Source of the DNA: Conexibacter sp. SYSU D00693
GTDB taxonomy: Bacteria; Actinomycetota; Thermoleophilia; Solirubrobacterales; Solirubrobacteraceae
Direction of reading: 5' to 3'
DNA length: 64,000 nt
Assembly (NCBI RefSeq): GCF_017084525.1
Contig: NZ_CP070950.1
Coordinates: 62,001 to 126,000, forward strand
Made by a program: the position numbers and the translations under genes. Position 1 is the stretch's first letter; the number at the start of each line of letters is the position of its first letter. This document shows, in pieces, positions 52,008 to 63,635 of the stretch. Below the pieces are notes generated by a model that did not search any database, had not been told where the DNA came from, and worked only from the letters and a program-made list of their open reading frames with translations.

Positions 52008-52044
52008 CCTCTGGTCGTCACCGATCGGTGGCGCATGATGCGCC
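52005..52044 (+). promoter_or_regulatory. -10 TAGCCT and palindrome GGCGCAT-G-ATGCGCC in a 5' leader
   Basis: TAGCCT (52005-52010) overlaps the previous stop codon. A perfect 7+1+7 palindrome lies at 52030-52044 in the leader of the S15 peptidase gene, before its ribosome site. It could be an operator or a stabilising RNA hairpin. Confidence 0.45.
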
Positions 52045-52066
52045 GCCGCGGAGAGGGAGAGCGCAC

Positions 52067-54130
52067 ATGCTGGAGCAGGGTCTGGGTCGCAGGCTGTGGC
52101 GGGCGGTGCTGGCCGCCGTCTGCCTGGTGCTGGTCGGGGGCGCCGCGTCGGCGCACGCCGCGAGCTGGTCGGACTACGACCGGCCGGCCACGAACGGGGT
52201 GGTGACCGACCGCGAGGTGCCGATCACCATGCGCGACGGCATCGTCCTCTCGGCCACCGTCTCCCGGCCCGACCGGCCCGGGCGCTACCCCGTGCTCGTC
52301 ACCCAGACGCCGTACGGCAAGGAGGGCGTCGGCGGCTTCTTCGGCGCGGGGGCCAACTACCTCGTCCAGCGCGGCTACGTGCAGGTGACCGTCGACGTCC
52401 GCGGCACCGGCGCCTCGCAGGGCCAGTGGGACTCGTTCGGCACCGCCGAGCAGCTCGACGGCAAGGACGTGGTCGAGTGGGCGGCCAGGCAGCCGTGGAG
52501 CGACGGCAACGTGGGGCTCAACGGCCCGTCGTACATGGGCCTCAACCAGCTCTACACCGCGGCGCTGCAGCCCGCCGGGCTCAAGGCGATCTTCCCCGTG
52601 GTCCCGATGGCCGACGGCTACCGCGACATCGTCTTCTCCGGCGGCGCGATCAACGCGGGCTTCATCCCGCTGTGGCTCGGGCTCGTCACGGCGGGCTCGA
52701 TCACGCCGCCGTCCTACGCGCTGAGCGGCAAGAAGGAGGACCTCGTCCGTGGCCTGTCGGCGCTGACGAGCCACGTCACCGGCGTGGCGAACTTCCAGCT
52801 CAACACGCTGCTCGGCGCGATCCTCGGCACCGACACCGTCTACGACGGGCCGTTCTGGCGCACGCGCTCGCCGCTCGAGGTCGTCGACGACATCAAGGTC
52901 CCGGCGTTCGTGGTCGGCGGCCTGCACGACATCTTCCAGCGCGGCGAGCCGCTCGTCTACGAGCGCCTCAAGCAGCGCGTCGACGCGCGCCTGCTCATCG
53001 GCCCGTGGACGCACGTCGGCGGCTCGATGGGGGAGGGCCTGCCGCGCGACGGCGTCCCGTCGCTGAGCAGGATCCAGCTGCGCTGGTTCGACCACTGGCT
53101 CAAGGGCCTGGACTCGAAGGTCGGCGAGATCCCCAAGGTCACGCAGTACGCCTGGGGCGCCGAGCGCTACGAGGTCCAGGACGACTGGCCCCGGCCGCAG
53201 ATGGCGCCGCGCAGGATGTTCCTGCGGGGCGGCAAGGCCCTGTCGGCGGACGCGCCGCGCGCGGCCGAGTCCCCGCAGGGCTACGTCCAGCAGCCGCTGT
53301 CGGGCATCTGCACGCAGAGCACCGTGCAATGGACCGCTGGCCTGCTGGGTTCGATCCCGTGCGCGCAGGACAACCGGCTGGACGAGGCGCTCGGCCAGGC
53401 GACCTACACGACGCCGCCGCTCGAGCAGGACCTCCACGTCGACGGCCCGATCGCCGCGAAGCTCTGGATCACGACGACCGCGAAGGACGCGCCCGTCACG
53501 GTGCGCCTGACCGACGTCTCCCCGAGCGGCGCGTCGACCGAGCTGACCTCGGGCTGGCTGGCGGCGACCTTCCGCGCGCGCGACACGAGCCGCGACCGCG
53601 TCGTGCGCGGCGAGACGATCCAGCCCTGGCACCCGTACACGCGCTCGTCGGTGCAGGCGGTCAAGCCCGGCGAGGCGACCGAGATGGACGTCGAGGTCTT
53701 CCCGACCAACGCGGTCATCCGCAAGGGCCACCGCCTGCGCGTCGTCGTCGCCCCGAGCGACTTCCCCCACCAGGTTCCGCCGCTGCCCCAGCTGCGCGAC
53801 TCGCTCCTGGGCTCCGTGAAGGTCCTCACCGACCCCGAGCACGCCTCGCACGTCGTGCTGCCGACCGTGGGCAGCGAGTGCGCGGTGCCGGCGAAGGCGG
53901 CGGCGAAGAAGAAGGCCGCGAAGAAGAAGGCCGCCAGGAGGAAGCAGGCCTCCAAGCGCAGGACGTCCTCGGCGAAGCAGCGCAAGGCCGCGGCGAAGAC
54001 GAAGACGAAGGCGAAGGGCAAGCCGCGCAAGGGCGCGAAGACCAAGGCGAAGGCGAAGAAGCCCGCCAAGCGCCAGGCCGCCCCCGCGGGGTGCGCGGCG
54101 CTGCCGATGCCCGACCTGACGCGGGGCTAG
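52067..54130 (+). CDS. Secreted S15/CocE-type alpha/beta hydrolase with Lys/Ala-rich tail
   Basis: A 687-residue exported hydrolase of the X-Pro dipeptidyl-peptidase / cocaine esterase family. A signal peptide (about 1-30, ending SAHA) precedes the catalytic domain: VTVDVRGTGASQGQW, the nucleophile Ser in LNGPSYMGLNQ, Asp in VGGLHDIFQRGEP, His in GPWTHVGGS. A C-terminal beta domain follows. The last roughly 70 residues are a cationic tail (KAAAKKKAAKKKAARRKQ, KTKTKAKGKPRKGAK) not found in the family. The ATG at 52067 follows GAGAGGGAGA and gives a proper signal peptide. The 3' stop shares CTAG with nirD. Confidence 0.87.
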   Translation: MLEQGLGRRLWRAVLAAVCLVLVGGAASAHAASWSDYDRPATNGVVTDREVPITMRDGIVLSATVSRPDRPGRYPVLVTQTPYGKEGVGGFFGAGANYLVQRGYVQVTVDVRGTGASQGQWDSFGTAEQLDGKDVVEWAARQPWSDGNVGLNGPSYMGLNQLYTAALQPAGLKAIFPVVPMADGYRDIVFSGGAINAGFIPLWLGLVTAGSITPPSYALSGKKEDLVRGLSALTSHVTGVANFQLNTLLGAILGTDTVYDGPFWRTRSPLEVVDDIKVPAFVVGGLHDIFQRGEPLVYERLKQRVDARLLIGPWTHVGGSMGEGLPRDGVPSLSRIQLRWFDHWLKGLDSKVGEIPKVTQYAWGAERYEVQDDWPRPQMAPRRMFLRGGKALSADAPRAAESPQGYVQQPLSGICTQSTVQWTAGLLGSIPCAQDNRLDEALGQATYTTPPLEQDLHVDGPIAAKLWITTTAKDAPVTVRLTDVSPSGASTELTSGWLAATFRARDTSRDRVVRGETIQPWHPYTRSSVQAVKPGEATEMDVEVFPTNAVIRKGHRLRVVVAPSDFPHQVPPLPQLRDSLLGSVKVLTDPEHASHVVLPTVGSECAVPAKAAAKKKAAKKKAARRKQASKRRTSSAKQRKAAAKTKTKAKGKPRKGAKTKAKAKKPAKRQAAPAGCAALPMPDLTRG

Positions 54131-54474
54131 GCCGCCACGGCGGCCGCCGGCGCGGCGTCGTCCGCGCCGGCGTCCTCGCCCAGCGCCACACACACGCGAC
54201 CGTCGAGCACCTGCACGCGGTGGGTCGCCACGGGGCCGCCGGCGTGGCCGATCGGCGCGCCGGTGTCCAGCGCGTAGCGGCGCTCGTGCAGCGGGCAGAT
54301 GACGGAGCAGTCCGCGGCGATCCCGTCGGCGAGCGGGCCGCCCGCGTGCGGGCAGGCGTGGTCGATGGCGTACCAGCCCGTCGGCGTGTTGAACAGGGCG
54401 ATGCGGCGGCCCTCCACGTCGATGGAGCGGCCCTCGCCGGCCGGGACGTCGTCGACGGAGCAGACGGGGATCAT
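54127..54474 (-). CDS. nirD: Nitrite reductase small subunit NirD (Rieske type)
   Basis: A 115-residue protein with a Rieske [2Fe-2S] domain: the Cys-His pair in DHACPHAGGPL and the second pair in CPLHERRYALD. It works with NirB in assimilatory NADH-dependent nitrite reduction. The ATG overlaps the nirB stop (ATGA). It has a short Ala/Asp-rich C-terminal tail, and its stop shares CTAG with the convergent S15 gene. Confidence 0.93.
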   Translation of the reverse strand: MIPVCSVDDVPAGEGRSIDVEGRRIALFNTPTGWYAIDHACPHAGGPLADGIAADCSVICPLHERRYALDTGAPIGHAGGPVATHRVQVLDGRVCVALGEDAGADDAAPAAAVAA

Positions 54475-56894
54475 CGGAGCGCCTCCTCGGGCGGGCCGAC
54501 GACGGCAGGCTCGCGCGCGGCGGCCGGCTCGTCGTCCAGGTCGGTGAACTGCCGGGGGTGGTAGGGCTCGCGGCGCTCGAGCCACGGGTCGGTGACCGCC
54601 GCCTTGGCGAGGCGGAAGCGCTCGCGCAGGGCGGCACCGGACGCCTCGCCCAGGACCTCCTCGCGGATGCGGTCCAGGCCCCACCGGGGGACGAAGTCGT
54701 ACGTGCGCTCCTTGAAGTCCGCGTTCTCGCGGTAGAGCTGGAGGAACGTCGTGGCGACGCGCAGCGCCTCGGCGCGCGAGTCGACCGTGGCCAGGACGTC
54801 GGCCTCGCGGACGTTGCCGCCGGCCGCGCCGCCGACGCGGACCTGCCAGCGGCCCTCGCCGACCGCGACGAGCCCGACGTCCTTGATCGTCGCCTCGGCG
54901 CAGTTGCGCGCGCAGCCCGAGACGCCGGCCTTGACCTTGTGGGGCGTGTGCAGGCCCTCCCACGCCTTCTCGAGCTCGACGCCGAGGCCCATCGAGTCGC
55001 CGAGGCCGAAGCGGCAGAAGTCCTCGCCCACGCACGTCTTGACCGTGCGCACCGCCTTGGCGTACGCGTGGCCCGAGGGCATGCCGAGCGCCTCCCAGAC
55101 GGCCGGCAGGTCCTGCTTCTTGACGCCGAGGAGGTCGAGCCGCTGGCCGCCGGTGACCTTCACCAGCGGCACGTCGAACTGCTCGGCGACGTCGGCGATG
55201 CGGCGCAGCTCCTCGGGCGTGGTCACGCCGCCGTACATGCGCGGGACGACGCTGAACGTGCCGTCCTTCTGGATGTTCGCGTGGACGCGGTCGTTGATGA
55301 AGCGCGCGTGGCGTTCCTCGCGGTGGCGGTTGGCGTTGACCTCGGAGACGAGGTAGGCCAGCGCCGGCTTGCAGGCGCCGCAGTCGCGCCCCGTCCCGCA
55401 GGCCGCGGAGACCTCGGAGACCGACTCGAGGCCCTGTTCGCGCACCACGGCGGCGAGGTCCTCGCGCGTCTGGCGCTTGCACGGGCACAGGTAGGCGGGC
55501 TCGTCGGCGACCTCGCCGCCGGCGGCCAGCGCGACGAGGTCGACCACGGTCGCCTTGCACGAGCCGCAGCCCGTGCCGGCGCGGGTCATCGCCATCACCT
55601 CGCGCGGCGTGCGCGCGCCCTCCTCGGTGACCGCGGCCGTGATCTGGCCCTTGCAGACGCCGTTGCAGTCGCAGACCTGGGTGTCGTCGCTCCACTCGGC
55701 GGGGCCCGCCTCGGCCGAGGCGGCGAGCACGGCGAGCGGGTCCTCGACCTCGTCCCCGCGGCGCACGAGGCCGAGCAGCGCCTCGGCGCCACGCACGTCC
55801 CCGAGGAGGATGGCGCCCGCCGCCCGGCCCTCGTGCACCACGAGCTTGCGGTAGACGCCGCGCCCCGCGTCCTGCGAGACGACCTCGCCGTCGCCGTCGG
55901 TGGCCCCGATGGCCACGAGCGGCACGTCGGAGACCTTGAGCTTCGCGCTCGGGATCGAGCCCTCGTAGGCGGCGGTCGTGTCGCCGCAGATCGCCGCGGC
56001 GGCAGTGCGCGCCTGGTCGAGGATCGGGGCGACGAGCCCGTGCACGATCCCGCGGTGCTGGGCGCACTCGCCGACCGCCCACACGCCGTCGACCGTGGTG
56101 CGCAGGCCGTCGTCGACGACGATCCCGCGCTCGACGGCGCAGCCGGTGGCGCGGCCGAGCTCGGCCTGGGGCCTGATGCCGATGGAGACGACCACGAGGT
56201 CGGCCTCCAGCTCGTCGCCGCCCGCGAAGCGCAGCCGGTCGGGGGCGATCTCGGCCGTCTGGCGCTCGAAGAGGACGTCCATGCCCAGGGCGCGTTCGAG
56301 CAGCGCGGCGGAGCCGGCGTCCAGCTGGCGCTCCATGAGCCGGTCCATGAGGTGCACGACGGTGACCGCGCAGCCCTGGGAGGCGATGCCGCGCGCGGCC
56401 TCGAGGCCGAGCAGCCCGCCGCCGATGACCGCGGCGTGCCTCGCGGTGGTCGCCGCGTCGCGGATGGCGTCGCAGTCCTCGGGGCCGCGGAAGGGGTGGA
56501 CGTGGGGCTGGTCGATGCCGGGGATCGGCGGCATCAGCGCGTCCGACCCGGTGGCGAGGACCAGCGCGGTGTAGGGCAGCTCGGCGCCGTCGTCGAGCAC
56601 GACGAGGCGCTCGGCGGCGCGGACCTCGACGACGCGGCGTCCGACGAGCGTGCCGACGTGGTGGTCGGTGAACCACTCGGCGGGGCGCAGCGCGAGCGTC
56701 TCGCACGAGGCGCCCGACACGAGGATCTCCGAGAGCCGGACGCGGTCGTAGGGCAGCCGCGGCTCGGCGCAGACCAGCGTGATCGGGGTCAGCGCGTCGA
56801 GCTCGCGCACCGCCTCGCAGACCGCCTGGCCGGCGATGCCGCCCCCGACCACGACGACGCCAGGGGCGCCCGGGACCGTGCCGTCCATGCTCAT
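54471..56894 (-). CDS. nirB: Assimilatory nitrite reductase large subunit NirB
   Basis: An 807-residue enzyme reducing nitrite to ammonium. From the N terminus: FAD-binding GGGIAG, NAD-binding IGGGLLGLEAARG, BFD-type [2Fe-2S] segments (CDCNGVCKG then GTGCGSCKA, and a second set CPCKRQ and GRDCGACKP), and a sulfite/nitrite reductase part with the siroheme-[4Fe-4S] Cys residues in TCVGEDFCRFG and SGCARNCAEA. The ATG overlaps the nasA stop by 4 bases; a GlnR-like box lies in the last codons of nasA, 22 bases before this start. nirD overlaps its end. Confidence 0.95.
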   Translation of the reverse strand: MSMDGTVPGAPGVVVVGGGIAGQAVCEAVRELDALTPITLVCAEPRLPYDRVRLSEILVSGASCETLALRPAEWFTDHHVGTLVGRRVVEVRAAERLVVLDDGAELPYTALVLATGSDALMPPIPGIDQPHVHPFRGPEDCDAIRDAATTARHAAVIGGGLLGLEAARGIASQGCAVTVVHLMDRLMERQLDAGSAALLERALGMDVLFERQTAEIAPDRLRFAGGDELEADLVVVSIGIRPQAELGRATGCAVERGIVVDDGLRTTVDGVWAVGECAQHRGIVHGLVAPILDQARTAAAAICGDTTAAYEGSIPSAKLKVSDVPLVAIGATDGDGEVVSQDAGRGVYRKLVVHEGRAAGAILLGDVRGAEALLGLVRRGDEVEDPLAVLAASAEAGPAEWSDDTQVCDCNGVCKGQITAAVTEEGARTPREVMAMTRAGTGCGSCKATVVDLVALAAGGEVADEPAYLCPCKRQTREDLAAVVREQGLESVSEVSAACGTGRDCGACKPALAYLVSEVNANRHREERHARFINDRVHANIQKDGTFSVVPRMYGGVTTPEELRRIADVAEQFDVPLVKVTGGQRLDLLGVKKQDLPAVWEALGMPSGHAYAKAVRTVKTCVGEDFCRFGLGDSMGLGVELEKAWEGLHTPHKVKAGVSGCARNCAEATIKDVGLVAVGEGRWQVRVGGAAGGNVREADVLATVDSRAEALRVATTFLQLYRENADFKERTYDFVPRWGLDRIREEVLGEASGAALRERFRLAKAAVTDPWLERREPYHPRQFTDLDDEPAAAREPAVVGPPEEALR

Positions 56895-59800
56895 GCGGGC
56901 ATCGTGGCCGGGGGCGGTTTCGCGTCCGCGACGCTCGTGTTTCGAGCTGATGACGCGTGGAGGTCGAGCAGCTGACGGACCTGGCCGGCGCAGCCGCCAC
57001 AGCCCGTCGAGGCGCGCGTGGCCGTCGCGACCTGCGCCACCGTCCGGGCCCCGCCGCCGACGATCGCCTGCTCGATCGTCCCCGCCGTCACGGCGTTGCA
57101 GGAGCAGACGAGCTCGTCGGGGTCGGGCGGTGCCGGGGGCCGGGTCGCGGCCGGGCCGTCGAGGAGCCCGTCGTCGACCGCGTGGCCGGTGCGCAGGAGC
57201 GTCGAGCAGCGCCGCGCGTCGGCGACGTCGCCGAGCATGAGCGCGCCGACGAGGCGGTCGCCGTCGAGCACGAGCTTGCGGAACACGCCCCGGCGGGTGT
57301 CGCGCAGGACGACCTCGTCCTCACCGTCGGCGGCCTCGGGCCGGCCGCCGCAGAACAGGTCGACGCCGGCGACCTTGAGCGTCGTGGCGGGGACGACGGG
57401 GTGGAAGGCGGCGGGGTCGCCGGCGATGCCCGCGGCGGCGACCCGGGCCTGCTCGGCCAGCGGCGCCCAGAGCCCGTAGACCGTGCCGCGGTGCTCGGCG
57501 CACTCGCCGACCGCCCAGACGCGCGGGGCGCCGGCGCGCAGCTGGTCGTCGACCTCGATCGCCCGGCCGACCGGCAGGCCCGCCGCGGCGGCCAGCGTCG
57601 TCTCGGGCCGCACGCCCGCCGCGACCACCACGACGTCGGCGGGCAGCCGCGTGCCGTCGTCGAGGACGACCGCGTCGGCCTCGATCGCGGCGGCCAGGCG
57701 CCCGCAGCGCGCGGTGATGCCGCGGGCGGCGAGCGCCCGGGCGAGCATCGCCGCCGAGGCCTCGTCGAGCTGGCGGCCCATGAGCCATGGGGCCGCCTCG
57801 ACGACGTCGACCGCGGCGCCGCGGCCGGCCAGGCCGGCGGCGGCCTCGAGGCCGAGCAGGCCGCCGCCGAGGACGACGGCGCGCCGCGCGCCGGCGCCCA
57901 GCGCCGCCTCGAGCGCGGCGACGTCGGCCTGCGTGCGGAAGACGTGGACGTGGTCGGCGCCGGCGCCCGGCACCGGCGGCACGAACGGCCGCGAGCCCGT
58001 CGCCACGACCAGCGCGTCGTAGCCGTGGACCTCGCCGTGCGCGTCGGTCACGGTGCGAGCCGCCGTGTCGATCGCCGTCGCCGGGCAGCCGCCGCGCAGG
58101 TCGACGCCGTGCTGGGCGTACCACGCGGCGGGCCGCAGCCCGAGCTCGGCCGGCCCGCAGTCGCCGGCCAGGAGCTTGGAGAGCAGGATCCGGTTGTACG
58201 CCGGCCCCGGCTCCTCGCCGAGCATCGTCACCCGCCACGACGGGTCGCGCTGCAGCAGCTCCTCGACCACGCGCAGCCCCGCCATCCCGGTGCCGACGAC
58301 GACCAGCCGCGGGCGTCCGGATGGAAGGTGCCTGGCACCTTCCACCCGCGCGGCCGGGGTGACCCCCGCCGGCGCGAGGCCGACGGCGATGGCCTTGAGC
58401 TCGGGCTGGCCCGAGGTCGGGTCGACGCTGCGGTGCCCGAGGACGTTCAGCGCGCCGGCGCCCGCGGGGGCGTGCAGCGCCCCGAAGTGGAACGGCGCGA
58501 AGGCGACGCCGCGCGGGAGCGTCGCATCGAGGCGGGCGCGCAGCACGACCTCGCCGCGGCGGGAGGACACCCGGACGCGGTCGCCCTCGTCGACACCGGC
58601 GTCCGCCGCGTCCTCGGGGTGGACGTCGACCGTCGGCTCACCCGCCGCGCGCCGCAGCGCCTCGGACTTCCCGGTCCGCGACATCGTGTGCCACTGGTCG
58701 GCCAGGCGGCCCGTCGTGAGCACCAGCGGCCGGTCCTCGTCGGGGGCGTCGGCGGGGTCGGCGTGGGGGGTGGGGGCGAAGTGCGCCTTGCCCGCCGGCG
58801 TCGGGATGCCGCGCCCGCCCTCATAGAGGCGGGTCGTCCCGTCGTGCTCGACCTGTGCCGGCGCGGGCCACTGCACCGAGCCCTCGCGCCGCAGGCGCTC
58901 GTGGGAGATCCCGCTCTGGTCGCACGGGCGTCCCGCAGTGAGGGCGACGTACTCGGCGTGGACCTCGGCGGGCGTCGCCCACGCGAAGTCGGCGCCGAAG
59001 CCCAGCTCGCGTGCCAGCCCGGCGTAGATCTGCCAGTCGGGCCGCGCGTCACCGGGCGGGTCCAGCAGCTGGCGCACGAGCCCGACGCGCCGCTCCGAGC
59101 TCGTCATCGTGCCCTCCTTCTCCGGCCAGGCGGCCGCGGGCAGGACGGCGTGGGCGAGCGCCGAGGTCTCCGTCGGGTGGTGGCAGTCCTGGACGACGAG
59201 CAGCTCTGCGCGCTCGAGCGCCTCGCGCACGCGCCCGCCGTCGGGCAGCGAGACGACCGGGTTGGTGGCCGCCACCAGCACGGCCTTCACCCGGCCCTCG
59301 AGGAGCGCGTCGACGAGCTCGACCGCCGTGAGCCCGGGAACCGCCGGGAGCCGCTCGGCCGGGACGCCCCAGTGGGCGGCGACCTCCGCGCGGTGCCCGG
59401 CGTCGACGACCTTGCGGTAGCCGGGGAGCAGGTGGGCCAGGCCGCCGGTCTCCCGCCCGCCCATCGCGTTGGGCTGACCGGTCAGCGACAGCGGACCGCA
59501 CCCAGGACGGCCGAGGTTGCCCGTCGCCAGGCAGAGGTTGATGAGCGCGCGGTTCTTCAGCGTCCCCACGGTCGACTGGTTGGCGCCCATCGACCACAGC
59601 GCCATGGCCGTCCCCGCCGTGCCGAACAGCCGCGCCGCCCGCACGATGTCGGCCGCGGGGACGCCGCAGGCCTCGGCGGCCCGCGGCACCGGCCACGCGC
59701 GCGCGGCCTCCAGCGCCCGGCCGAAGCCCGTCGTGTGGCGCGCCACGAACGCCTCGTCGAGCAGGCCCTCGTCGGCCAGCACCCCCAGCATCGCGTTGAG

Positions 59801-60469
59801 CAGCGGCAGGTCGCTGCCCGGGCGCACGGCGAGGTGGAGGTCGGCGGCCTGGGCCGTGGGCGTCGCGCGCGGGTCGACCACGACGACCTTCGCGCCCTCG
59901 GCCTGGCGGTCGCGGATGCGGCTCCAGACGATCGGGTGGCAGGCCGCCGCGTTCGAGCCGAGCAGCAGCAGGCAGTCGGCGAGGGCCAGGTCGGCGTAGG
60001 CGGGCGGCGGACCGTCGGCACCGAAGGCGCCCGTGTAGCCCGCGACCGCGCTCGACATGCACAGCCGCGAGTTGGAGTCGACGTTGTTCGTCGCGAGGAA
60101 GCCCTTGGCCAGCTTGTTGACCGCGTAGTAGTCCTCGGTCAGCAGCTGGCCCGAGACGTAGAAGGCGACCGCGTCGGGCCCGTGCTCGGCCACGATCCGT
60201 GCGAGCTCGCCGCCGACGTGGCCCAGCGCCTCGTCCCACGTCGCCTCCGTGAAGCGCTCGTCGCGCGAGGCGCGCAGCAGCGGCACCGTCGCGCGGTCCG
60301 CGGCGTGCACCGCGGAGCCCAGCTCGATCGGCTTGCGGCAGGTGCGCCCGCGGTTGACGGGGTGGCGCGGGTCGCCGGCCACCCGGGCGACGCGGCCCCC
60401 GTCGACCTCGACGCGCAGCCCGCAGCCGGTCCCGCAGTACGGGCAGAGCGTCGCCTGGGCCTCGGGCAC
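56891..60469 (-). CDS. nasA: Fused assimilatory nitrate reductase: molybdopterin, FAD/NAD and [2Fe-2S] domains
   Basis: A protein of about 1192 residues. The N-terminal two thirds form a NasA/NarB-type molybdopterin reductase: [4Fe-4S] ligands in LCPYCGTGC and GRTC, the Mo-ligand Cys in NSRLCMSSAV, and GANQSTVGTLKNRAL. From about 730 a NirB/NasB-like FAD-NAD(P)H module follows (VVVGTGMAGLRVV, VVLGGGLLGLEAAAG), then a BFD [2Fe-2S] domain (VCSCNAV, TGCGGCAGQ). Thus NAD(P)H oxidation and nitrate reduction are on one chain. GTG 60469 is preferred over GTG 60478 because the promoter layout matches nirB exactly. Confidence 0.9.
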   Translation of the reverse strand: MPEAQATLCPYCGTGCGLRVEVDGGRVARVAGDPRHPVNRGRTCRKPIELGSAVHAADRATVPLLRASRDERFTEATWDEALGHVGGELARIVAEHGPDAVAFYVSGQLLTEDYYAVNKLAKGFLATNNVDSNSRLCMSSAVAGYTGAFGADGPPPAYADLALADCLLLLGSNAAACHPIVWSRIRDRQAEGAKVVVVDPRATPTAQAADLHLAVRPGSDLPLLNAMLGVLADEGLLDEAFVARHTTGFGRALEAARAWPVPRAAEACGVPAADIVRAARLFGTAGTAMALWSMGANQSTVGTLKNRALINLCLATGNLGRPGCGPLSLTGQPNAMGGRETGGLAHLLPGYRKVVDAGHRAEVAAHWGVPAERLPAVPGLTAVELVDALLEGRVKAVLVAATNPVVSLPDGGRVREALERAELLVVQDCHHPTETSALAHAVLPAAAWPEKEGTMTSSERRVGLVRQLLDPPGDARPDWQIYAGLARELGFGADFAWATPAEVHAEYVALTAGRPCDQSGISHERLRREGSVQWPAPAQVEHDGTTRLYEGGRGIPTPAGKAHFAPTPHADPADAPDEDRPLVLTTGRLADQWHTMSRTGKSEALRRAAGEPTVDVHPEDAADAGVDEGDRVRVSSRRGEVVLRARLDATLPRGVAFAPFHFGALHAPAGAGALNVLGHRSVDPTSGQPELKAIAVGLAPAGVTPAARVEGARHLPSGRPRLVVVGTGMAGLRVVEELLQRDPSWRVTMLGEEPGPAYNRILLSKLLAGDCGPAELGLRPAAWYAQHGVDLRGGCPATAIDTAARTVTDAHGEVHGYDALVVATGSRPFVPPVPGAGADHVHVFRTQADVAALEAALGAGARRAVVLGGGLLGLEAAAGLAGRGAAVDVVEAAPWLMGRQLDEASAAMLARALAARGITARCGRLAAAIEADAVVLDDGTRLPADVVVVAAGVRPETTLAAAAGLPVGRAIEVDDQLRAGAPRVWAVGECAEHRGTVYGLWAPLAEQARVAAAGIAGDPAAFHPVVPATTLKVAGVDLFCGGRPEAADGEDEVVLRDTRRGVFRKLVLDGDRLVGALMLGDVADARRCSTLLRTGHAVDDGLLDGPAATRPPAPPDPDELVCSCNAVTAGTIEQAIVGGGARTVAQVATATRASTGCGGCAGQVRQLLDLHASSARNTSVADAKPPPATMPA
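56917..56954 (-). promoter_or_regulatory. GlnR-type box before nirB
   Basis: Minus strand: GTCAT-n6-GAAAC-n6-GTCGC-n6-GAAAC, the spacing of actinobacterial GlnR boxes (GTNAC-n6-GAAAC repeated). After exactly 10 bases comes CACGAT, then 6 bases, then the nirB ATG. It lies inside the 3' end of nasA. Confidence 0.75.
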
Positions 60470-60492
60470 GCCGAGCACTGTGCGGGGCCGCG

Positions 60493-60530
60493 GTTTCTCC
60501 CGCGCGACGCGTCTGTTTCGGGCTGATGAA
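60493..60530 (-). promoter_or_regulatory. GlnR-type box between nasA and glnA
   Basis: Minus strand: TTCAT-n6-GAAAC-n6-GTCGC-n6-GAAAC. After exactly 10 bases comes CACAGT, then 7 bases, then GTG 60469 of nasA. On the plus strand it lies 64 bases before the glnA -10, so one box could serve both directions. Confidence 0.75.
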
Positions 60531-60594
60531 CAGCTCGACCGAGTGGCACGGATCTTCCGACGAAGTGGCGACTCGGAGGCCCTCCGGGCGCCCC

Positions 60595-60600
60595 TACCTT
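60595..60600 (+). promoter_or_regulatory. -10 hexamer TACCTT for the glutamine synthetase gene
   Basis: TACCTT lies 6 bases before the GTG at 60607, the recurring leaderless layout, and decides the start of that gene. Confidence 0.5.
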
Positions 60601-60606
60601 GCAGTC

Positions 60607-61908
60607 GTGGACCTGCGCAAGGCCTACGTGCAGCGCACCGTCGAGGAGCGCGGGGTGCGCTTCGTGCGCCTGTGGTTCGTCGACGTCCTCGGCGCCCTGA
60701 AGTCCCTCGCGGTCCCGGTCTCGGAGCTCGACGCCGCGCTGGAGGAGGGCGTGGGCGTCGACGGCTCCGCGCTCGAGGGCGCCGCGCGCAAGCGCGAGCG
60801 CGACGTCATCGCGATGCCCGACCCGGGCACCTTCGCGCTGCTGCCGTGGCGCGGCGGCGACGTCGCCCGGATGTTCTGCAGCCTCGAGCAGCCCGGCGGC
60901 GCGCCGGCGCCCGCCGACTCCCGCGCGGTCCTGGCACGCGTCCTGGAGTCGATCGCCGACCTCGGGTGGACCGCCCAGGTCGGGGCCGAGCTGGAGTTCT
61001 TCCTCTTCGCCGACGACGGGGACGGCGCGGCGCCGCGGCCGCTCGACGCCGGCAACTACTTCGACCTCACGCCGCTGGACGAGGGCAGCGACTTCCGGCG
61101 GCGCACCATCGACCTGCTCGAGCAGCTCGGCATCCCCGTGAAGGCCAGCCACCACGAGGTCGGCCCGAGCCAGCACGAGATCCAGCTCGCGCATACCGAC
61201 GCGCTGTCGATGGCCGACGCCATCACGACCTTCCGCCTGGCGGTCAAGGAGGTCGCCAGCGAGCTCGGCGTCTTCGCGACGTTCATGCCCAAGCCGCTCG
61301 AGCGCCACGCCGGCAGCGGCATGCACCTGCACCTGTCGCTCTTCGACGGCTCGCGCAACGCGTTCTTCTCGCCCGACCCCGGCGAGCCGCTCTCCGCGCT
61401 GGGCCGCCAGTTCCTCGCCGGCCTGCTGGCCCACGCCGGCGAGCTCACGCTGCTGACCAACCAGTGGGTGAACTCCTACAAGCGGCTGGCCAACGGCTTC
61501 GAGGCCCCGCGCCACGTGCTGTGGACGCGCACCGGCGGCGCCGGCCTCGTGCGCGTCCCGTCCAACCGCCCGGACCGCGAGAGCGCCGCCCGCATCGAGC
61601 TGCGCTCGCCCGACCCCGGTGCCAACCCGTACCTCGCCTGCGCCCTCATCCTCGCCGCGGGCCTGCGCGGCATCGAGCGCGGCTACCAGCTGGCGCCCGA
61701 GGAGCACGGCGGCGTGACCCACGAGGCGCCGCTGCTGCCCTCCGACCTGCGCGAGGCGACCGACGCCTTCGCGTCCTCGGAGCTCGCCCGTGAGACGCTC
61801 GGGGACGCGCTCGTCGACCTCGTCGTCGCCAACAAGCGCGCGGAGTGGGACGCCTACCAGTCCACCGTCACCCAGTGGGAGCTCGAGCGCTTCCTGCGCT
61901 CCCTGTAG
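60607..61908 (+). CDS. glnA: Glutamine synthetase, type I family
   Basis: A 433-residue enzyme making glutamine from glutamate, ammonium and ATP. The N-terminal beta-grasp domain has RFVRLWFVDVLGALKSL; the catalytic domain has VGAELEFFLF, KASHHEVGPSQHEI (metal-binding Glu and His residues), GSGMHLHLSLF, and SNRPDRESAARIELRSPDPG. It is shorter than the adenylylated GlnA1 type and no NLYD-type adenylylation loop was seen, so it resembles the secondary actinobacterial GS group. An ATG frame 27 codons upstream overlaps the GlnR box and was rejected. It would assimilate the ammonium made by NirBD. Confidence 0.93.
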   Translation: MDLRKAYVQRTVEERGVRFVRLWFVDVLGALKSLAVPVSELDAALEEGVGVDGSALEGAARKRERDVIAMPDPGTFALLPWRGGDVARMFCSLEQPGGAPAPADSRAVLARVLESIADLGWTAQVGAELEFFLFADDGDGAAPRPLDAGNYFDLTPLDEGSDFRRRTIDLLEQLGIPVKASHHEVGPSQHEIQLAHTDALSMADAITTFRLAVKEVASELGVFATFMPKPLERHAGSGMHLHLSLFDGSRNAFFSPDPGEPLSALGRQFLAGLLAHAGELTLLTNQWVNSYKRLANGFEAPRHVLWTRTGGAGLVRVPSNRPDRESAARIELRSPDPGANPYLACALILAAGLRGIERGYQLAPEEHGGVTHEAPLLPSDLREATDAFASSELARETLGDALVDLVVANKRAEWDAYQSTVTQWELERFLRSL

Positions 61909-61914
61909 CCGGCC

Positions 61915-62598
61915 GTGGCCGAGGCCTGGATCTACACCGACCCCGACGCCGACGGCGACGCCGCCGGCGAGGTCGCGCGGGTCCTGGCCGACCTGGGCTT
62001 CGCCCCGCGCAGGGTGACCGCCAACGGCTCGCTGCGCCCCGAGGGCGACGGCGTCGCGGCGGGCCGCCCGCCCGACCTCGCGCTCGTCCTGGGCGACGTC
62101 GGCCTGTGCGCGCGGCTCGAGAGCGACGAGGACCTCGGCGACGTCCCCGTCCTCGTGGCGGTCGACGACGAGGACCTCGAGTCCGGCGCGGTGCACGAGG
62201 GCCACGAGCTCGTGGTCCTGCCGATCCGGCCGGTCGAGCTGCGCGCGCGCATCGCCCGCGCCCGCCGCCGCGTCACCGGCGTCACCGACGACGAGGTCGT
62301 CCGCGTCGGCTCGCTCGAGGTGAACCTCGCGACCTACCAGGTCGCCGTCGACGGCAAGCCGGTCGACTTCACCTACCTCGAGTACGAGCTCCTGAAGTTC
62401 CTCGTCACCCACCCCGGGCGCGTCTTCAGCCGCGAGGCGCTGCTGAGCCGCGTCTGGGGCTTCGACTACTACGGCGGCGCGCGGACGGTCGACGTCCACG
62501 TGCGACGGGTCCGGGCGAAGCTCGGCACCGAGCACGCCCAGCGGATCAAGACCGTGCGCAGCGTCGGCTACCTCTTCGAGGGAGAGGCCCAGCGATGA
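61915..62598 (+). CDS. glnR: GlnR-like orphan OmpR-family nitrogen regulator
   Basis: A 227-residue regulator. The N-terminal 115 residues have the length of a receiver, but the phosphorylation site is not conserved (DLALVLGDVGL where a normal receiver has its Asp on strand 3). The C-terminal winged helix (LEVNLATYQVAVDGK, TYLEYELLKFLVTHPGRVFS, RVWGFDYYGGARTVDVHVRRVRAKLG) is very close to what I remember of actinobacterial GlnR. It lies 6 bases after glnA and near two GlnR-type boxes, which supports the identity. The trpD2-like gene overlaps its stop. Confidence 0.82.
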   Translation: MAEAWIYTDPDADGDAAGEVARVLADLGFAPRRVTANGSLRPEGDGVAAGRPPDLALVLGDVGLCARLESDEDLGDVPVLVAVDDEDLESGAVHEGHELVVLPIRPVELRARIARARRRVTGVTDDEVVRVGSLEVNLATYQVAVDGKPVDFTYLEYELLKFLVTHPGRVFSREALLSRVWGFDYYGGARTVDVHVRRVRAKLGTEHAQRIKTVRSVGYLFEGEAQR

Positions 62599-63635
62599 CC
62601 GACCTCAGCACGCAGCCCGTCCGGGGGCGCGCCGGCTACGCCGGCTTCCGCTCCGTCATCAAGGCGGTGGCCACCGGCCCGCGGGGCTCGCGCGACCTCA
62701 CCTTCGACGAGGCGCGCGAGGCCGGCGCCGCGCTGCTGGCCGGCGACGTCACGCCGGCACAGGCCGGCGCGTTCCTCATCGGCCTGCGCGTCAAGGGCGA
62801 GGCGGCCGACGAGCTCGCCGGCCTGGCGCAGGCGTTGCGCGACCGGGCGACGGCGCTGCGCGCGCCGGACGGCGGCGGGCCGCTCGTCGTCAGCGCCGGC
62901 GCGTTCGACGGCATCGCCGAGGCGCCGCCGCTGTCGCTGGCCGCGGGCGCGTGCGCCACGGCGGCCGGCGCCCGCGTGGTCGTCGCCTGTGGCAGCCGCA
63001 TCGGGCCCAAGCACGGCGTGACGGCCGCCGACGTCCTCGGCGCGCTCGGCGGCCCGGCACGGCCCGGGCCCGAGGAGTCCGCGGCGCTCCTCGCGCGCGC
63101 GGGGATGACGGTGGTGCACGCCGGCGAGTCGCTGCCCGGCTGGGAGGGCCTGGCCGAGGTGCGCAACGAGGTCGGGCTCCGCGGCCCGGTGCACTCGGCC
63201 GAGAAGCTCGTCGACTGGTTCGGCGCGCGGCGCTTCGTCGTCGGCCACACCCACGGCGGCTACGCGCCGCGGCTGCTCGGCGCGCTCGAGCGCCTCGGCG
63301 CCGACCACGCCGTCGCCCTGCGCGGGGTGGAGGGCTCCGACGTGCTGCGCCCCGGCCGGCCGGTCGCCGCGACGCTCGCGGGGCCGGTCGAGCTGCCCGA
63401 GCGCCTCGGGCTCATCCTGCGCGGCGACCCGGACCCGGAGCTCGCCGGGGGTCTCACGCGCGCGGTGCTGGCGGGCGACGAGCACGGCGCCGCGCGCCGC
63501 GCCGTCGTGCTCAGCAGCGCGGTCCGGCTGCTCGCGGCCGGCGTGGCGACCGACCCCGCCGAGGGCGTGCGCCGCAGCGAGGCGGCGCTGGCCGACGGCC
63601 GCGCCGCCGCGGTGCTCGACGCGCTCGTCGGCTGA
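62595..63635 (+). CDS. TrpD2/YbiB-like glycosyl transferase-family protein
   Basis: A 346-residue protein with the fold of anthranilate phosphoribosyltransferase: helical N domain (LTFDEAREAGAALLAGDVTPAQAGAFLIGLRVKGE) and nucleoside-phosphorylase-like body (GSRIGPKHGVTAADVLGALGG). The GTGGD phosphoribosyl-binding loop of true TrpD is replaced (SAGAFDG), so it is likely not tryptophan biosynthesis but the TrpD2/YbiB group, some of which bind nucleic acid. It overlaps the glnR stop by 4 bases (ATGA), placing it in the nitrogen operon. Its role there is unknown. Confidence 0.8.
   Translation: MTDLSTQPVRGRAGYAGFRSVIKAVATGPRGSRDLTFDEAREAGAALLAGDVTPAQAGAFLIGLRVKGEAADELAGLAQALRDRATALRAPDGGGPLVVSAGAFDGIAEAPPLSLAAGACATAAGARVVVACGSRIGPKHGVTAADVLGALGGPARPGPEESAALLARAGMTVVHAGESLPGWEGLAEVRNEVGLRGPVHSAEKLVDWFGARRFVVGHTHGGYAPRLLGALERLGADHAVALRGVEGSDVLRPGRPVAATLAGPVELPERLGLILRGDPDPELAGGLTRAVLAGDEHGAARRAVVLSSAVRLLAAGVATDPAEGVRRSEAALADGRAAAVLDALVG

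Follow-up and report, generated by a model that had tools for sequence, protein, structure and literature searches.

The 64,000-nucleotide (nt) stretch of Conexibacter sp. SYSU D00693 analyzed here (the window, part of a genome of 4.43 Mb) holds a nitrate assimilation cassette in which glnR, encoding an OmpR-type regulator, stands beside the nitrate and nitrite reductase genes nasA, nirB and nirD, with two GlnR boxes before nirB and nasA (Table 1). The best-favored reading, with a probability of about 85%, is that the cassette is self-contained and that GlnR binds the two boxes and activates the leaderless nirB and nasA promoters under nitrogen shortage. What was computed is the orthology of GlnR, the presence and conservation of the boxes, the constant 10-nt distance from box to −10 element, and the joint occurrence of boxes and glnR.

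GlnR boxes and promoter architecture

Mismatches were counted against the textbook double box, GTnAC-n6-GAAAC-n6-GTnAC-n6-GAAAC. Box 1, before nirB, reads GTCAT-n6-GAAAC-n6-GTCGC-n6-GAAAC (two mismatches), and box 2, facing nasA, reads TTCAT-n6-GAAAC-n6-GTCGC-n6-GAAAC (three mismatches); each spans 38 bp, and both b sites (GAAAC) are perfect in both boxes. Box 1 ends 22 nt from the nirB ATG and is not intergenic, being located inside the last codons (3′ end) of the nasA open reading frame. Box 2 ends ∼23 nt from the revised nasA start and also lies 77–114 nt upstream of the divergent start of a glutamine synthetase (GS)-like gene. According to a first-order Markov model built from the window, sites with three or fewer mismatches were expected 0.005 times per 64 kb and 0.35 times in the genome, and two and four were observed, respectively. 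A preliminary description of this DNA had placed the two boxes before nirB and nasA; both are present, on the minus strand and far above chance. When the strict form TTCAY/GAAAC/GNCGC/GAAAC (three or fewer mismatches) was searched through the 4.43-Mb genome, solely the two cassette boxes were found, and a composite pattern of box and −10 element returned the same two sites with no mismatches and, in the genome, one further match with three. A three-mismatch match at 385116 was rejected as a GlnR box (coding-like by eye, 5 bits in the position weight matrix, PWM). The genome-wide site work consisted of pattern searches, which degenerate sites escape.

The A (−11) and T (−7) of the promoter, that is, the second and sixth positions of the −10 hexamer, were scored relative to the box. 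A hexamer beginning exactly 10 nt past the box carried both bases in 16/16 nirB, nasA and gntR sites from nine genomes, and at any other offset this A/T spacing fitted at most 1/16 sites. In relatives, seven further sites, before narK and permease genes, also obey the 10-nt rule, two of them (L034 and L035) when the box register is moved by 22 bp. Given this −10 placement, the second a site falls on the −35 region of the nirB and nasA promoters. The start codon comes 6 to 9 nt after the −10 hexamers of nirB and nasA (CACGAT, CACAGT and similar), a distance at which the messages of both genes are probably leaderless in most cases. The nasA frame opens at GTG 60478 (56891–60478, 1195 codons); because this codon overlaps the predicted −10 element, the start was moved to GTG 60469, which is probably the one used. 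An RNA leader, considered as the source of the upstream conservation, was dropped, as the promoter layout explains that conservation. At S. coelicolor amtB, the second a site (a2) likewise lies on the −35 region and GlnR is believed to stand in for the −35 contact (PMC5826061); in M. tuberculosis, the GlnR peak at nirB lies right beside the start site, and GlnR acts directly on both nirB and narK3 (PMC4950008).

We infer that GlnR binds the boxes, that it activates rather than represses, and that nitrogen limitation is the signal. The deep-branching GlnR encoded at 61915 would bind the two four-half-site boxes, which overlie the −35 regions at nirB and nasA; once bound, it would recruit RNA polymerase to the leaderless promoters, nitrate and nitrite reductase being made when nitrogen is short. 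Repression of nirB and nasA, with a box so near the start codon (22 and ∼23 nt) that bound GlnR keeps out RNA polymerase (on ammonium, for instance), would suit these distances and the fact that GlnR represses certain genes of M. tuberculosis (PMC4950008). It is nevertheless improbable: the box stands upstream of the −10 element, never covering it and always at 10 nt, which is the activator layout of amtB (PMC5826061); the −10 hexamers are weak (CAnnnT for the most part), in line with activator-dependent promoters; and in the known systems GlnR activates nirB, nas and narK.

The divergent operon of the GS-like gene, glnR and a trpD2-like gene was read as starting, again leaderless, at a predicted GTG 60607. 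Its promoter has a TAnnnT −10 element, and no GlnR box was found there at an activating, start-proximal distance, box 2 ending 77 nt upstream. A separate element, TCGACCGAGTGG, is conserved at 60540–60590 in this promoter region and in the GS upstream regions of L034 and L035; it is not a GlnR box and could be bound by a different regulator.

Identity of the regulator

The best PDB matches of the 61915 protein by sequence were the GlnR chains 8hig and 8hih. Its DNA-binding domain (PF00486, 90 bits) superposes on that of GlnR at 1.8 Å with 52% identity, and the top whole-length fold match of the predicted model (predicted local distance difference test score, pLDDT, 90.5) was the GlnR chain 8hih_N. 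An N-terminal receiver fold is seen in the predicted model, and Pfam Response_reg gives no match. A quick tree of 111 proteins was built with approximate likelihood-ratio (SH-aLRT) support only. GlnR was separated from MtrA, RegX3 and the paralogues with a support of 100, the 61915 protein being on the GlnR side, and the clade of all actinobacterial GlnRs, including PDB 8hig and 8hih, received 86. Within that clade the protein branches with Thermoleophilia (97) and then with Acidimicrobiia and Coriobacteriia, and the Actinomycetes GlnRs, with both PDB proteins, form the sister group. The 61915 protein, earlier described as GlnR-like, is therefore a true GlnR on a deep Thermoleophilia/Acidimicrobiia/Coriobacteriia branch, and does not cluster outside the family.

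The aspartate of the receiver's degenerate phosphorylation pocket (D44/D48/D50) is Leu in the 61915 protein. It is kept in 28/29 Actinomycetes, in 0/13 Thermoleophilia and in 2/15 Acidimicrobiia, and the position is Glu in 14 of the 16 Coriobacteriia GlnRs. Since the aspartate is missing, GlnR would probably work here without phosphorylation at the receiver position.

GlnR-like regulators were also observed in marine Acidimicrobiia, in Chloroflexota/Dehalococcoidia and in an Omnitrophota metagenome-assembled genome (L084, L090, L096, L106 and L114), some of them near a GS gene.

Boxes and GlnR in related genomes

The comparison set consisted of 60 related genomes, of which 10 carry a GlnR orthologue scoring above the paralogues (one of them weakly). 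Boxes before nirB were scored in the 19 nirB-bearing genomes (9 with GlnR, 10 without) with a leave-one-genome-out matrix, the tested genome being excluded from training. A box of 30–45 bits was found just before nirB in 7/9 GlnR-bearing genomes; with the same matrix none was found before nirB in the GlnR-less ones (0/10, best score −1.2 bits). The box and −10 layout in relatives also precedes narK, a gntR-GS-glnR operon and a peptide permease: an extra box behind the cassette stands before a NarK-type nitrate transporter, and a Conexibacter metagenome-assembled genome has a one-mismatch box before the gntR-GS-glnR operon and another before the permease. At the GS-glnR pairs of other classes the excess of boxes is weak and appears at six or more mismatches alone (17 loci against 5.8 expected), and it was not used. 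The result for nirB supports the boxes as conserved operators whose occurrence follows that of GlnR.

The main binder of the boxes could instead be another OmpR-family protein or an NnaR-type co-regulator. The genome encodes further OmpR-type regulators, and NnaR is reported to act with GlnR on nas/nir genes in Streptomyces and mycobacteria (PMC6277429, PMC11162112). However, over the 19 genomes the boxes track the presence or absence of this glnR, other OmpR proteins being found in nearly all, and glnR is physically linked to the boxes, so that a different binder seems most improbable.

Four observations weigh against control of the cassette by GlnR as proposed. First, the a half-sites (GTCAT or TTCAT, and GTCGC) deviate from GTnAC. 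Second, nirB lacks a preceding box in two GlnR-bearing genomes: G024, where the gene lies ∼15 kb from glnR, and G026, where the box stands before narK instead. Third, the one-sided Fisher value for the boxes before nirB (7/9 versus 0/10), ∼0.0007 as worked by hand, is optimistic because the relatives are not independent samples. Fourth, the receiver aspartate that is important for dimerization or activity in Actinomycetes is missing; as it is a feature of Actinomycetes and not of the whole clade, its loss lowers functional equivalence rather than clade membership.

Reach of the regulon

In this genome, no GlnR box was found at the canonical glnA (G000:C1:1499009) or at either amtB locus (best PWM score 1.7 bits). 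The narK gene is located outside the window, ∼350 kb from the cassette, and has at best a weak site before it: one fitted by eye (GTCAC-GATGC-TTCAC, −10 CAGACT) scores poorly in the matrix and is unproven, as is a three-mismatch array at 471134, which faces away from narK. The genome scan for box pairs proposed in the preliminary description thus leaves the strong sites confined to the cassette, and the strong detectable regulon comprises the nitrate pathway rather than global control of nitrogen. Beside one amtB, and divergent from it, a third and much diverged GS-domain gene (794-codon open frame) was observed (L051, G000:C1:4095354 and 4096871).

Genes of the cassette

The arrangement of GS and glnR, with or without trpD2, divergent from nasA-nirB-nirD recurs in most GlnR-bearing relatives. 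NirB exceeds the cutoff of its curated model, and NirD falls just short of its own. In NasA, the nitrate reductase is fused to a NirB-type flavin adenine dinucleotide (FAD)/rubredoxin-C reductase and a BFD [2Fe-2S] domain, a fusion that recurs in relatives and suggests that a single polypeptide serves as an NAD(P)H-dependent assimilatory nitrate reductase. The TrpD2/YbiB-like gene adjoins glnR in 7/9 relatives bearing the cassette GS. Next to the cassette (52028–54130, plus strand), a predicted X-Pro dipeptidyl-peptidase-type hydrolase was recognized by eye; its tail (∼53880–54100) is long, Lys/Ala-rich and histone-H1-like (KKKAAKKKAARRK...).

Table 1. Features of the nitrate assimilation cassette, with positions in the window.
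Feature	Position	Strand	Basis
nirD, nitrite reductase small subunit (Rieske type)	54127..54474	-	Rieske domains; TIGR02378 74.0 bits, cutoff 74.65
nirB, nitrite reductase large subunit	54471..56894	-	TIGR02374 750 bits, cutoff 578; predicted leaderless start ATG 56894
−10 element CACGAT of nirB, predicted	56901..56906	-	Exactly 10 nt after box, as in all relatives
GlnR box 1, before nirB	56917..56954	-	Four half-sites, 11-bp period; PWM 53 bits
nasA, molybdopterin nitrate reductase with NirB-like FAD reductase and BFD [2Fe-2S]	56891..60469	-	Pfam domains, promoter layout
−10 element CACAGT of nasA, predicted	60477..60482	-	10 nt after box
GlnR box 2, facing nasA	60493..60530	-	Four half-sites, 11-bp period; PWM 48 bits
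−10 element TACCTT of GS-glnR-trpD2 operon, predicted	60595..60600	+	Sequence reading; TAnnnT at equivalent place in relatives
GS-like paralogue	60607..61908	+	Gly311 in place of catalytic Arg, Ala in place of NGSGMH Asn; feedback Arg62 retained
glnR, OmpR-type regulator without receiver Asp	61915..62598	+	Domains, PDB matches, tree, predicted fold
trpD2-like gene (Glycos_transf_3)	62595..63635	+	4-nt overlap with glnR

The glutamine synthetase-like partner

The 60607 protein has the GS fold (PF00120, 345 bits), with the metal-binding Glu residues and the Glu-flap conserved, and scores under the cutoff of the curated GlnA model (361.6 bits versus 429). Gly311 occupies the position of the catalytic arginine of solved GSs (R314 in 8oow; R316 in B. 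subtilis, PMC10799026). Among the Thermoleophilia cassette GSs, the catalytic Arg is lost in 9/10 and the Asn of NGSGMH in 10/10, whereas the canonical GlnA of the clade keeps both in 15/15. In the GS tree, the glnR-adjacent GSs form a group of their own (84), distinct from the clade (100) that holds the canonical GlnA of those genomes. The preliminary description had taken regulator, operators and a nitrate-to-glutamine pathway as one unit. Regulator and targets are indeed one conserved block in relatives; completion of the pathway by the GS is not supported, this being a paralogue without the catalytic Arg and the NGSGMH Asn and without a start-proximal box, and the canonical glnA lies elsewhere. 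That glnR is usually encoded apart from its targets, as also claimed there, holds for Actinomycetes, where a GS is next to glnR at 1/27 loci, and fails for Acidimicrobiia and Coriobacteriia, where the GS-glnR pair is the rule: a GS stands directly before glnR in 14/15 Acidimicrobiia, 6/6 Acidimicrobiia-like and 13/15 Coriobacteriia loci (33/36 together).

What the GS-like gene does is a question apart from the boxes. It may encode a gamma-glutamyl ligase that is active on another amine and is co-regulated so that amine nitrogen can be used, a possibility that we rate somewhat below even odds. Streptomyces has GS paralogues that act on other substrates (GlnA3 and GlnA4), the metal and most substrate residues are intact, and most Acidimicrobiia copies retain the catalytic Arg. 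An amine ligase fits less well with the loss of that residue in 9/10 Thermoleophilia members and with the loss of the Glu-flap in several Coriobacteriia (clearly replaced in at least four copies).

The input signal of GlnR is stated as unknown in a review (PMC10704036), and in Bacillus a feedback-inhibited GS transmits the nitrogen signal to an unrelated GlnR (PMC10799026). It is conceivable, though doubtful, that the GS-like protein is a pseudo-enzyme which detects glutamine and acts on GlnR through direct contact, providing the nitrogen input in deep-branching Actinobacteriota; such a sensor would be parallel to, and independent of, the Bacillus switch of GS and MerR-type GlnR. The sequence data allow this role, in that a separate GS clade is linked to glnR in three classes and is mirrored by the GlnR tree, and in that catalytic residues are lost differently per class, Arg62 is kept and the partner GlnR is mostly without the receiver Asp. 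The feedback residue Arg62 is kept in 10/10 Thermoleophilia cassette GSs and 15/15 Acidimicrobiia copies, and lost in 13/15 canonical Thermoleophilia GlnAs. However, only 3/14 Coriobacteriia copies keep it, which speaks against a single glutamine-sensing mode; the catalytic Arg of most Acidimicrobiia copies also counts against a sensor, and an amine ligase would explain much. As few evolutionary events are involved, the association of the GS-glnR pair with a missing receiver Asp is suggestive only.

Comparison with known systems

GlnR has been studied almost only in Actinomycetes, and none of the papers searched names GlnR together with Thermoleophilia, Acidimicrobiia or Coriobacteri-. The cassette packs GlnR, operators and targets with predicted starts into ∼10 kb, which makes binding and activation accessible to rebuilding in vitro, and the linkage of a GS paralogue to glnR in three classes makes the sensor hypothesis testable. 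The regulon is, on good evidence, ordinary in kind, its arrangement self-contained and unusual, and the GS-like partner worth testing.

The GlnRs of M. tuberculosis and Saccharopolyspora erythraea (8hih, 8hig, 8hml) share with the present protein the clade, the receiver and winged-helix domains, the 11-bp period and the targets nirB and narK; they have the receiver Asp where Leu is found here, and their glnR is not, as here, in an operon behind a GS-like gene and beside its targets. The S. coelicolor amtB and nas promoters are alike in their 5-nt sites at n6 and in a2 over the −35 region (PMC5826061), whereas the present genome has two boxes, mostly leaderless predicted starts 6–9 nt past the −10 element at nirB and nasA, and GTCGC as a2, and no box was found at its amtB or canonical glnA. 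In Bacillus subtilis a GS is likewise paired with a regulator named GlnR (PMC10799026), but that regulator is of the MerR type rather than OmpR, and the GS here is a paralogue without catalytic residues whose contact with GlnR is hypothetical. The nasACKBDEF operon of Amycolatopsis mediterranei is also a GlnR-controlled nitrate assimilation operon (PMC10704036); glnR is not among its genes, whereas in Conexibacter nasA is fused to an FAD/BFD electron-transfer module of its own and stands divergent from GS-glnR-trpD2.

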